Virus record (IMG/VR): IMGVR_UViG_3300042559_000579
Span: 1 to 53,818 of that record
From: a virus
DNA: 53,818 bases
Direction: 5' to 3' (one strand)
Under the pieces are notes generated by a model that searched no databases, was not told the origin of the DNA, and saw nothing but the letters and a program-made list of their open reading frames with translations. Made by a program: the position numbers and the translations under genes. Below, piece after piece: positions 44,715 to 51,500 of the stretch; the first letter of the stretch is position 1; each line of letters opens with the position of its first letter.

Positions 44715-45014
44715 CTATGTCCTGGGGTCTTTGACCAGGGCCCGGACGTCGGCCAGCAGGTCCGCCTCACTGAACCCGTGGTGGCGCAGGAACCCCCGAG
44801 TCCCCAAGCCGTGGACGCCGGTGCGGCCTCGGTGGTGCTCGGGGCACAGTGGGATGACGTCCCAGTCGCTGGACCGCAGGCCCATGCCGGTGCCCACGCG
44901 CGGGTGGTGGAGTTCAGCCGGCCCGGGGTCGTGCGGGCCATGTATGCGCCGGCAGGCGATGCACCCCAAGGAAGCCACCTCGCCCATGTACCGACGCACC
45001 TGATGGGGCCTCAC
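44715..45014 (-). CDS. Ref-like HNH nuclease
   Basis: A 99-aa HNH-type protein: C18/C21 (LGCIACRRIHG), H36/H37 (ELHHPRVGTG), C57/H60/H61 (LCPEHHRG) and GVHGLGTRGF. The size and the order match the RecA-dependent Ref family known from phage P1 and other phages. It is part of a recombination module with the RuvC-like resolvase. Confidence 0.7.
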   Translation of the reverse strand: MRPHQVRRYMGEVASLGCIACRRIHGPHDPGPAELHHPRVGTGMGLRSSDWDVIPLCPEHHRGRTGVHGLGTRGFLRHHGFSEADLLADVRALVKDPRT

Positions 45015-47909: not shown

Positions 47910-48224
47910 TCATACCCGCCGAGGTCGACCTCCGCGAGCGCCATTGATGGCCGCCACCTTCCTGCGGCGTTGCAGGCGTTCCACCTCGGCCTGCAGTTCG
48001 TGCTGGGTGTACCCGGCGTCAGTCACGTCGAAGAACTGCTCCAGCACCGGTGAGATGCAGTCCCAGTCCAGCCGGATCAGGTCCTGCAGCAGCTTGCGAT
48101 CGCGCGGTAGCGGGCCCTCGCGCTTGAAATACGCGTCGATCATGCGGCGCAGCGCCAGATCCTCCGCGTCCGGCATGGAGGCCATCACGGGCCCCCAGGC
48201 GTCGAGGTTGAAGACGTAGTTCAC
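47910..48224 (-). CDS. short DUF1376-like protein, 104 aa
   Basis: WGPVMASMPDAEDLALRRMI, YFKREGPLPRDRKLLQDLIR, FFDVTDAGYTQHELQAEVER and AAINGARGGRPRR match the N-terminal domain of the downstream 295-aa replication protein in outline, so this looks like a stand-alone paralog. It could act as a partner or a modulator of the initiator. It overlaps the YdaS-like gene by four bases (ATGA-type). Confidence 0.6.
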   Translation of the reverse strand: MNYVFNLDAWGPVMASMPDAEDLALRRMIDAYFKREGPLPRDRKLLQDLIRLDWDCISPVLEQFFDVTDAGYTQHELQAEVERLQRRRKVAAINGARGGRPRRV

Positions 48225-48430
48225 GACGCGCTGCCGAACAAATCCGGCCGCAGGTCTTCCTTGCGGACGGCGCCGTTGGTCATCTTGCTGATGGCCACAG
48301 CGAGGTACGGGGAGCAGGTCTCCCGCCCGCTGATGATGCCCGACATCCAGGTGCGAGTGATGCCCAGCCTACGGGCCATGATGGCCTTGGAGCCGTGCGG
48401 CTGAGAGTCAAACCATTCTTTGAGAGTCAT
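48221..48430 (-). CDS. YdaS/Cro-like HTH regulator
   Basis: A 69-aa protein with an HTH: SKAIMARRLGITRTWMSGII then SGRETCSPYLAVAI, typical of YdaS/Cro-like repressors. It faces the early promoter region and probably binds it. ATG at 48430 has GAGG upstream; a longer start at 48457 is possible. No second repressor or integrase is visible, so lysogeny cannot be claimed. Confidence 0.7.
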   Translation of the reverse strand: MTLKEWFDSQPHGSKAIMARRLGITRTWMSGIISGRETCSPYLAVAISKMTNGAVRKEDLRPDLFGSAS

Positions 48431-48452
48431 ATCGGCCTCGTTGTGTGAGTGC

Positions 48453-48481
48453 ATCATACACGATGGCTTTGTTTTTTTATC
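48453..48481 (-). promoter_or_regulatory. leftward early promoter candidate PL
   Basis: Minus strand TATGAT (48458-48453, five of six to TATAAT) with a weak -35 (GATAAA) 17 bp upstream. It would drive the YdaS-like gene and the replication/recombination genes. Confidence 0.45.
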
Positions 48482-48812: not shown

Positions 48813-49472
48813 ATGGGACTGACAGCACGACAAACGGGAGGCGGCGGCGACTTCAAGCCCGTCCCCCCGGGAATGCACCTCGCACGGTGCTACCGAATCA
48901 TCGACCTCGGTTCGCAAAAGGGCGAATGGAAAGGCCAGCAGAAGATCTCTCCGAAGGTCATGATCCAGTGGGAAGTCCACAGCGAGGACGACGCCGGCAA
49001 GCCTCTGGTCACCGACAAGGGTGAACCGCTGACGATCAGCAAGAACTACACCGTGTCGCTCAGCGAGAACGCCCGCCTGCGCGTTGACCTCAAGTCCTGG
49101 CGCGGCAGGGATTTCACGCAGGAAGAGCTCAACGGCTTCCATCTGCGCAACGTGCTCGGCGCGTGGTGCATGCTGACCGTCATGAAGACCACCGGCCAGG
49201 ACAACAAGGAGTATTCCAACGTCACGGCCGTCAGCCCGGTGCCGGCCAATCTGCGCCGCATGGGGCTGCCCGAGGGCCACAACAAGACGGCCTTCTTCGA
49301 TCTCGACAACCCCGACATGGCGCTGTTCGACAGCCTGGGCGATAGGCTCAAGGCCAAGATTCAGTCCGCCCCCGAATGGCCGAAGAACTCTCCGGCCGAG
49401 CAGTACCAGCGCGAGCAGAACGCATCTGCGAAGTCGCTGGAGGAAATGGACGACGACATCCCTTTTAACTAG
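48813..49472 (+). CDS. DUF669-like single-strand DNA-binding protein
   Basis: A 219-aa beta-rich protein: GDFKPVPPGMHLARCYRIID, MIQWEVHSEDDAGKPLVTDK, ISKNYTVSLSENARLRVDL, and an acidic end with DDDIPF, the type of tail used by single-strand-binding proteins to recruit partners. Similar proteins stand beside replication and exonuclease genes in other phages. ATG at 48813 overlaps the previous stop by one base region (TGATATG). Confidence 0.7.
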   Translation: MGLTARQTGGGGDFKPVPPGMHLARCYRIIDLGSQKGEWKGQQKISPKVMIQWEVHSEDDAGKPLVTDKGEPLTISKNYTVSLSENARLRVDLKSWRGRDFTQEELNGFHLRNVLGAWCMLTVMKTTGQDNKEYSNVTAVSPVPANLRRMGLPEGHNKTAFFDLDNPDMALFDSLGDRLKAKIQSAPEWPKNSPAEQYQREQNASAKSLEEMDDDIPFN

Positions 49473-49516
49473 AACCGACCTACAATGGTCAGACCTCATA
49501 GCACAGGAGCTCTGAC

Positions 49517-49945
49517 GTGGTCGGTTCTAAGGAGTGTTTCAAGTGCAAGGCCGTCAAACCACTGGAAGGTTTCTACAAACACCCAGAAATGGCGGACGGC
49601 CATCTCAACAAATGCAAGGAGTGCGCAAAACAAGACATCGCAAACAACAGATCAAAAAACCTTGAGCGCATACGCCAATATGACCGGGAAAGATCAAAAA
49701 ACAAAGATCGACTTCGGGCATCAGCCGAAATCTCAAAAGCCTGGAGAGCCCAGGATCTCAGGAGATCAAAGGCGCATAGCGCAGTTGCAAGGGCAATTCG
49801 TTCTGGAGCGTTGGCTCGACAACCTTGTTCTTCGTGCGGAGCCGAAAAGTCTGTGGCGCATCACGAGGATTACGACCAGCCTCTGCAGGTGACTTGGCTA
49901 TGTCAACCGTGCCATGTCGCTCTTCATCGGAAGAACCGTCTCTAG
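49517..49945 (+). CDS. HNH endonuclease-like zinc protein, 142 aa
   Basis: Two zinc-binding regions: C7/C10/C33/C36 at the N-terminus and C104/C107 with C129/C132 near the end (CSSCGAEKSVAHHEDYD, WLCQPCHVALHR), containing the HH (115-116) and HxxxH (133/137) of an HNH fold. The middle is a basic helix. Base composition is lower in GC than the neighbours (43% over 49621-49680). It may be a mobile homing-type nuclease inserted in the early operon. GTG start at 49517 with CAGGAG upstream. Confidence 0.65.
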   Translation: MVGSKECFKCKAVKPLEGFYKHPEMADGHLNKCKECAKQDIANNRSKNLERIRQYDRERSKNKDRLRASAEISKAWRAQDLRRSKAHSAVARAIRSGALARQPCSSCGAEKSVAHHEDYDQPLQVTWLCQPCHVALHRKNRL

Positions 49946-49955
49946 GAGATACATG

Positions 49956-50375
49956 ATGGACTTTTCTCTCGCACTCACCCTGCTCAAGCAGGGGTACTCG
50001 GTCAGCCGCGAAGGCTGGAACGGCAAGGGCCTGTCTCTGCATCTGCAGCGCCCCGACGCCAACAGCAAGATGACGCTGCCGTACATCTACCTGGAATACC
50101 CGGCCGGCAGCGCCCGGGTGCCCTGGCTCGCCTCGCAGACCGACATGCTGTCTGACGACTGGACGGTGATCGCTCCCCAAGCCACCGCCAAGGCCCCGCA
50201 AACGGCCCAGGAGGCGCCGAAGCGCCGCGGACGACCCAAGGGTGCAGCCAGGGAGAAAACGCCCGTACAGCGCGATCCTGACGCCCCGTACGGCCGGAAG
50301 AAGGACGGCACGCCCAAGGCACCCCCCGGCCGCAAGAAGGCGGAGCCGTCAGCGCCGGCAGCACCGGCGGCCTGA
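49956..50375 (+). CDS. tad2-like: DUF2829 / Tad2-like anti-defence protein with basic tail
   Basis: A 139-aa protein. Residues 1-72 match DUF2829, the family shown to include the anti-Thoeris protein Tad2, which sequesters signalling nucleotides: FSLALTLLKQGYSVSREGWN (3-22), PYIYLEYP, and PWLASQTDMLSDDW (56-69). Residues 73-139 form a Lys/Pro/Gly tail with three basic motifs: RRGRPKG (90-96, AT-hook type), GRKKDG (113-118) and PPGRKK (123-128). Tad2 proteins I know lack such a tail. ATG at 49956 has AGGAG seven bases upstream; an ATG three bases earlier is possible. It may also act on another nucleotide signal. Confidence 0.75.
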   Translation: MDFSLALTLLKQGYSVSREGWNGKGLSLHLQRPDANSKMTLPYIYLEYPAGSARVPWLASQTDMLSDDWTVIAPQATAKAPQTAQEAPKRRGRPKGAAREKTPVQRDPDAPYGRKKDGTPKAPPGRKKAEPSAPAAPAA

Positions 50376-50386
50376 GTCGTGACACG

Positions 50387-50406
50387 GGGGGCTTCGGCCC
50401 CCTTTT
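50387..50406 (+). terminator. UUCG-loop hairpin, copy 3, with T-run
   Basis: GGGGGC-TTCG-GCCCCC followed by four T. The same core as the two leftward copies, here with a T-run, so a better candidate terminator. It lies between the Tad2-like gene and the 83-aa gene. Confidence 0.75.
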
Positions 50407-50423: not shown

Positions 50424-50675
50424 ATGGACAAAGACTTCTGCAAGCCGTCAACGACGGGAGAACACGAATGGAAGCCGTGGTTTTCGGGCGGCCACAAATG
50501 CATTTACTGCAGGCAGGAGTGGCTCCCCGCTGAGCCCTGCGTCGATCCCGACGAGATCGAAGCGCACCGGTTTGTCGAGCCTGAGCCTGAGCCGCTGTGG
50601 CCCAAGGTTGTGGGCGTGGTCATTGCGATCATCCTGATTGGTCTGGTGTTCGGTCCTGTGGGGGTGATCAAGTGA
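50424..50675 (+). CDS. small protein with zinc site and membrane span, 83 aa
   Basis: The N-terminal half contains CKPSTTGEHEWKPW and GHKCIYCRQEWLP, a likely zinc site. The C-terminal third is one transmembrane helix (LWPKVVGVVIAIILIGLVFG). GAGGAG precedes the ATG. Function unknown; its early timing suggests interaction with the host envelope. Confidence 0.65.
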   Translation: MDKDFCKPSTTGEHEWKPWFSGGHKCIYCRQEWLPAEPCVDPDEIEAHRFVEPEPEPLWPKVVGVVIAIILIGLVFGPVGVIK

Positions 50676-51112
50676 GCGCCATCACCATTGACCGCGCACT
50701 GCTGGAGCAGGCGCTGGAGGCGTTGGAGCCCATGCAAAACAATAGGGACGACACAGCCATCCAACGTGCCATCACCGCCCTCCGCGCCGCGCTGGCGCAG
50801 CAGGAGCAGGCAACTGGTAAGGATTCCTTACAAGTTGAGTTCAAAGGAGGGGGGCAGATTGCCACCCCCCTTCAACTGACTACCGATGATCTGGCGTGGC
50901 TTGAAACCCGCCGTCTTGTGCGGATTTGGAAGGAGCTTGGGCAGATACGGTGGACCGGCGCTGATCAAGGCTGGGACAGGGCAATTGAGGCTGTGCGTGC
51001 GCGGCTGGACAAGGAGTGCCAAGACGTCTTGGCATGGAAAGAGAAGGTGGAAGCCAGCGGACAAACCGCTGCGCAACTGTTGCAAAAACTGCAAGGGATG
51101 AAAGATGACTGA
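50672..51112 (+). CDS. hypothetical protein, 146 aa, GTG start
   Basis: Begins with an ALLEQALEALEPM helix and contains AITALRAALAQQEQ, a helix pair that occurs in the next gene as well through a 34-bp repeat. The later part is helical and acidic. GTG at 50672 overlaps the previous stop as GTGA. No function known. Confidence 0.55.
   Translation: MSAITIDRALLEQALEALEPMQNNRDDTAIQRAITALRAALAQQEQATGKDSLQVEFKGGGQIATPLQLTTDDLAWLETRRLVRIWKELGQIRWTGADQGWDRAIEAVRARLDKECQDVLAWKEKVEASGQTAAQLLQKLQGMKDD
50777..50810 (+). repeat. 34-bp direct repeat, copy A
   Basis: An identical 34-bp sequence encoding an ALRAALAQQEQ segment occurs here and at 51189-51222, in two adjacent genes in the same codon phase. 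It suggests a shared module exchanged or copied between the genes. Confidence 0.8.
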
Positions 51113-51500
51113 CCTGAGAGAAACCGCACAGCAGTTTGTGAGCGACTACGAGAACGGCGATCTGGGAGACCTGAAGCACTACGCCCGCGCCCTCCGCGCC
51201 GCGCTGGCGCAGCAGGAGCAGGAGCCGGTGGCGTGGGTAGATGAGGCGTCCATTGCGTGGTTGGCTGAACATCCTCGCGGGATCATCACTACGCGCCTTG
51301 TAAAGCAGAAATCGCCTGAGCGCCAGATGGCCATGTATGCCGAACCACCCCGCCGCGAGTGGCAGTCGTTGAGCGAGGAGGAGATCTGGAAAGACGACCG
51401 GATCATGGCCGAAAACGCACGCTGCGGATTGATGATGTCCGACCTGTCAGCACTGGCCCGCGCCATCGAGGTCAAGCTGAAGGAGAAGAACAATGGCTGA
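51105..51500 (+). CDS. hypothetical protein, 131 aa
   Basis: Helical start (TDLRETAQQFVSDYENG), then RALRAALAQQEQEPVAWVDE, whose first part is the shared repeat, then a mixed domain with WLAEHPRGIITTRLV. The family with ALRAALAQ...EPVAWV is common in phage small genes, unnamed. ATG overlaps the previous gene by eight bases. Confidence 0.55.
   Translation: MTDLRETAQQFVSDYENGDLGDLKHYARALRAALAQQEQEPVAWVDEASIAWLAEHPRGIITTRLVKQKSPERQMAMYAEPPRREWQSLSEEEIWKDDRIMAENARCGLMMSDLSALARAIEVKLKEKNNG
51189..51222 (+). repeat. 34-bp direct repeat, copy B
   Basis: Second copy of the repeat at 50777-50810, 412 bp downstream, preserving phase and encoded peptide. Confidence 0.8.

Follow-up and report, generated by a model that had tools for sequence, protein, structure and literature searches.

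Does the open reading frame at 49956-50375 of this 53.8 kb virus record encode a Tad2-like anti-Thoeris protein that has acquired a nucleic-acid-binding tail, and what would such a tail contribute? The window is the whole stretch of DNA that was analysed (53,818 nucleotides). A preliminary description had proposed a DUF2829/Tad2-like core with a basic, AT-hook-like extension, and the motifs that it named (REGWNGKG, PWLASQTDML, RRGRPKG and two copies of GRKK) are all present in the plus-strand translation of this frame. The gene and its flanking signals are as follows.

49956-50375, plus strand: whole gene, 139 aa, Tad2-like core followed by a basic tail (translation; frame conserved in the related contigs L002 and L003)
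49944-49949, plus strand: Shine-Dalgarno-like AGGAGA, preceding the ATG at 49956
50386-50402, plus strand: terminator-like hairpin, GGGGGGCTTCGGCCCCC followed by TTTT, directly after the stop of the Tad2-like gene

The ATG at 49953 is also possible as a start. In both L002 and L003 the gene is preceded by AGGAGA/GGAGAT, similar to the Shine-Dalgarno-like site of the window, and a related hairpin sequence (GGGGGCTTCGGCCCCC) is retained in both.

The first part of the protein can be assigned with assurance.

49956-50171, plus strand: Tad2-like core (PF11195), residues 1-72 (Pfam, AlphaFold, Foldseek, invariant residues)

Residues 1-72 align with the complete Pfam profile PF11195 ("Tad2-like", formerly DUF2829) at E 9.1e-21, scoring 74.6 bits where the cut-off is 25, in agreement with the family first proposed. 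Matches in PHROGs were to phrog_1048 and phrog_872, both families of unknown function, whose profiles are longer and have the Tad2-like part at the C-terminal end. The nearest solved proteins by sequence are SptTad2, HgmTad2/AcrIIA7, SPO1 Tad2 and ModTad2; apart from single weak matches outside the core, the PDB sequence relatives are Tad2/AcrIIA7 chains throughout. An AlphaFold model built from 85 homologues gave a pLDDT of 91-98 for the core block. Foldseek gave 24 matches at E<=0.001, every one of them a Tad2/AcrIIA7 structure, SPO1, Hgm, Mod and Spt Tad2 included (TM-score to the target up to 0.85), so the expected Tad2 fold was recovered at a pLDDT above 90. R18, W21, G23, W57, D68 and W69 are invariant across the 85 homologues, and the GWNG, W-SQTD and DW motifs, which also occur in the solved sponges, are invariant or nearly so. 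The net charge of the core is about -1.4. Because the profile, the PDB relatives and the predicted fold agree, identification of the core as Tad2-like is secure.

It has been shown that SPO1 Tad2 is a tetramer holding two gcADPR molecules (PMC12043709) and that His-ADPR is bound by MoTad2/ModTad2 (PMC13299392). SPO1 Tad2 (gp34.65; PDB 8SME/8SMF/8SMG, 8WJE) has the same fold as the window protein (Foldseek TM up to 0.85, 31-39% identity) and the GWNGK, SQTD and DW motifs in common with it, but is tail-less and has a middle loop 12 residues longer. ModTad2, from a Myroides odoratus prophage (PDB 9EIB), agrees in fold and motifs, whereas its identity is low (about 30-35%), its middle loop is longer and a tail is lacking. 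The best PDB sequence matches, SptTad2 and HgmTad2/AcrIIA7 (PDB 8WJD, 8KBI-8KBM, 9KZR), also have the same fold, but with a longer beta-strand insert (24 additional residues in SptTad2) and without such a tail.

The core belongs to a compact, apparently uncharacterised "SKMTLPYIY" subgroup of Tad2, for which no characterised member was found. In alignments, the spacing from WNG to W.SQTD is 36 residues in the window protein, 48 in SPO1 Tad2 and 60 in SptTad2, the middle loop being shorter by 12 and 24 residues, respectively. The long insert between beta strands of the Hgm/Spt-type, cyclic-dinucleotide-binding Tad2 is missing. The SKM motif is common to 72 of the 85 sampled homologues. The spacing and the SKM motif would fit a Tad2-like fold put to another use, with the compact subgroup binding another nucleotide signal or targeting another system, as would the presence of AcrIIA7, which has the Tad2 fold and an anti-CRISPR name, among the solved relatives. 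Pocket differences arising from the compact middle loop could alter the ligand. However, every motif common to TIR-signal sponges is present, and the fold is the same despite the shorter loop; we consider a different job quite unlikely. Cyclic dinucleotides are reported to bind Tad2 at the insert region, separate from the gcADPR pocket (PMC12043709), and 3'3'-cGAMP is not bound by SPO1 Tad2 (PMC11722364). At the level of sequence, the compact middle loop argues against cyclic-dinucleotide binding. Given this short loop, and the insert as the reported cyclic-dinucleotide site, the ligand predicted for the window protein is a signal of the ADP-ribose type and not a cyclic dinucleotide.

The remainder of the protein contains three recognisable parts.

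50172-50219, plus strand: low-complexity Ala/Pro/Gln linker, residues 73-88 (pLDDT <50 at residues 77-86)
50220-50243, plus strand: AT-hook-like KRRGRPKG, residues 89-96 (sequence; identical in L002 and L003; shuffle test)
50283-50339, plus strand: copy of the module APYGxKKDGTPKxxPGRxxK, APYGRKKDGTPKAPPGRKK, residues 110-128 (IMG/VR scan, consensus)

The tail is Pro/Ala-rich and, as originally described, strongly basic (net charge about +9.8); its length is 67 residues (73-139) and not the 65 first given. The AT-hook-like core proposed for it was found as KRRGRPKG. When the tail sequence was shuffled with its composition preserved, this basic-flanked RGRP pattern ([KR][KR]RGRP[KR]) arose in 0.0125% of cases. 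An AT-hook of the HMGA type has the same basic-flanked RGRP core, but the tail is without a Pfam AT_hook call and its phage genome is GC-rich. Pfam returned no AT-hook or other domain on the tail at E<=10, such short models rarely passing the HMMER filters, and no match was obtained in NCBIfam. A pairing of Thoeris with an AT-hook was not found in the literature.

The segment at residues 110-128 fits the module consensus at each strongly conserved position, with A-P-[YW]-G-x-K-x-D-G-T-P-[KR]-x-x-P-G-R placed near the protein end. A scan of IMG/VR for K.DGTP...PGR gave at least 120 matches. Among the 120 matches listed, the module was located within 40 aa of the C-terminus in 66 and in the N-terminal leader of terminases (recognised by motif) in 48; one module-bearing leader was confirmed with PHROGs as that of a terminase large subunit. 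The consensus was taken from 58 unique C-terminal copies among the matches listed. In columns outside the search pattern, G is present at -2 in 54 of the 58, Y or W at -3 in 49 and A at -5 in 36, and K or P is the commonest residue after PGR. Carriers include a DUF3310 (PF11753) protein, an N4 gp49/Sf6 gene 66 (PF13876) protein and several unannotated families; L148, L149, L188, L136 and L211 are examples within the IMG/VR loci L121-L239. A fold prediction for the module by itself, made with 49 copies, gave a locally confident turn (block pLDDT 84-88).

Shuffled sequences contained no relaxed form of the motif. Across 918 kb of loci with Tad2 homologues it occurred only in L082 and L083, which duplicate the two tailed contigs. 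Two scans, allowing only some codons and spacings, revealed no independent fusions of a Tad2 core with the module, and L186, a close module copy on a contig cut at its end, has no Tad2 on that contig. Searches of annotated phages by tblastn with the tail or module peptide gave weak or no matches, low-complexity masking being the probable cause; no published name for the module was found in the literature. Because the same consensus recurs on unrelated small phage proteins and on terminases, the Tad2 tail, judging by sequence comparison, includes a portable phage module found on many unrelated proteins. Compared with these other carriers, the window protein adds a KRRGRPKG hook ahead of the module. 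Tethering to nucleic acid or DNA by the tail is plausible, given its AT-hook core, its charge and the fact that terminases carry the module too.

The distribution of the tail was followed in a viral set of 81 loci, of which 80 came from a scan and one (L001) is the copy in the window. The tailed form is present in the window, L002 and L003 only, a single phage lineage; in the other 78 the tail has no counterpart, and these proteins end no more than about 10 residues past the core. Among 21 homologue loci examined from a collection of 84,980 prokaryote genomes, none was tailed, and neither a search with the tail only nor two DNA pattern scans (core followed by RGRP) gave a further tailed member. 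The tail is thus no general feature of the family. Its absence from 78 of 81 viral and all 21 prokaryotic-genome homologues shows it to be a recent addition within one phage lineage. The pairing of core and tail, which the preliminary description had called new, was seen in only three phages; the tail itself is not unique, half of it being the recurrent module. Extensions beyond residue 72 in tblastn alignments (L015, L034, L040, L054, L080, L084, L066, L073 and L093) were stop-codon readthrough and not tails, and the pattern matches L106, L107, L109 and L110 had no RGRP tail in frame. Two other arrangements were observed in these loci: a tandem pair of Tad2-like genes in an alphaproteobacterial MAG (L089:6001-6736) and a duplicated C-terminal NGWLASQTDILSNDW stretch in a Tad2-like gene (L107:3124-3215, minus strand).

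L002 represents almost the same phage as the window (portal protein 99% identical). L003 represents a more distant phage, with DNA identity of about 75% across the region. The tail is conserved in both contigs, one being ~95% identical and the other ~73-76%. Between the window and L003, dN and dS (NG86) are 0.14 and 0.47 for the core and 0.20 and 0.46 for tail residues 73-130. The tail is translated and constrained to some extent, less strongly than the core. A sequencing artefact or frameshift as its origin is ruled out, a sequencing artefact being among the grounds for refutation that the first description had named: both relatives have the same frame and motifs, with dN below dS, and the tail is genuine coding sequence.

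Weaker constraint and absence from almost all homologues are also what would be expected if the core were a Tad2-family sponge and the tail a near-neutral, disordered extension, derived from a mobile phage module, that serves solubility or stability and has no DNA role. The tail consists mostly of Ala, Pro, Lys and Arg and is poorly ordered at residues 77-100 in the AlphaFold model. However, KRRGRPKG and GRKxDGTP..PPGR are kept in L003 despite a variable segment between them, and a module with a conserved consensus recurs on unrelated proteins. This explanation is possible but, in our estimate, somewhat unlikely.

The Tad2-like gene is located downstream of a phrog_862 gene, in a typical early-type region.

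48221-48457, minus strand: gene for a YdaS-type repressor-like protein, divergent from the tad2 operon

Just upstream of the Tad2-like gene, between it and the phrog_862 gene, the window has a 478-bp insertion (49466-49943) that is absent from L002 and L003. It carries an HNH/endonuclease VII-like ORF (49517-49945) and looks like a mobile endonuclease gene. By terminase, the closest annotated phage is the uncultured MW202545 (68%), followed by Caulobacter phages (45%). Elsewhere in the window, a protein of the RecA-dependent nuclease family (PF16786) is encoded at 44715-45014 on the minus strand. Beyond tad2, an LRAALAQQEQ segment is common to two small neighbouring genes at 50597-51500, which suggests duplication in this accessory region.

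This setting bears on the speculation that the tail attaches the sponge to phage DNA and thereby has it packaged, to enter the next host with the genome and protect before early expression. The presence of the module at the N-terminus of large terminases, which handle packaged DNA, lends itself to this idea. The early-type region, divergent from the YdaS/repressor-like gene, already suits early expression, though, and we regard packaging of the sponge as highly improbable.

The reading that we favour, with a probability of about 0.55, is a phage sponge of the Tad2 family that captures the TIR signal to counter Thoeris and has an accessory tail able to bind nucleic acid. Sponge function follows from membership of the Tad2 family; we infer the tetramer, the ligand, the anti-Thoeris activity and the DNA binding. 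The core (residues 1-72) would assemble like other Tad2 proteins and would hold a TIR-made signal of the ADP-ribose type, either gcADPR or a related molecule, for example His-ADPR. Capture of the signal would leave the host Thoeris effector off. The tail would act as a flexible basic extension joining the AT-hook-like KRRGRPKG to the module (APYGxKKDGTP...PGRK), and would most likely lend weak nucleic-acid affinity, keeping the sponge close to the nucleoid or to phage DNA during its replication.

Sponges of this kind are usually pictured as diffusing freely. A bolder proposal, which we think unlikely, is that a portable basic hook tethers the sponge to DNA or brings it in on the phage genome. 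If this is true, signal capture would be concentrated at the infecting genome by a hook that phages put on many proteins. If its tail does bind DNA, this natural sponge would offer a test of whether location affects the interception of immune signals by phages. The unnamed module, which terminases have in common with many small phage proteins whose function is unassigned, is a candidate general tether, and may be a more general lead than the tailed sponge.
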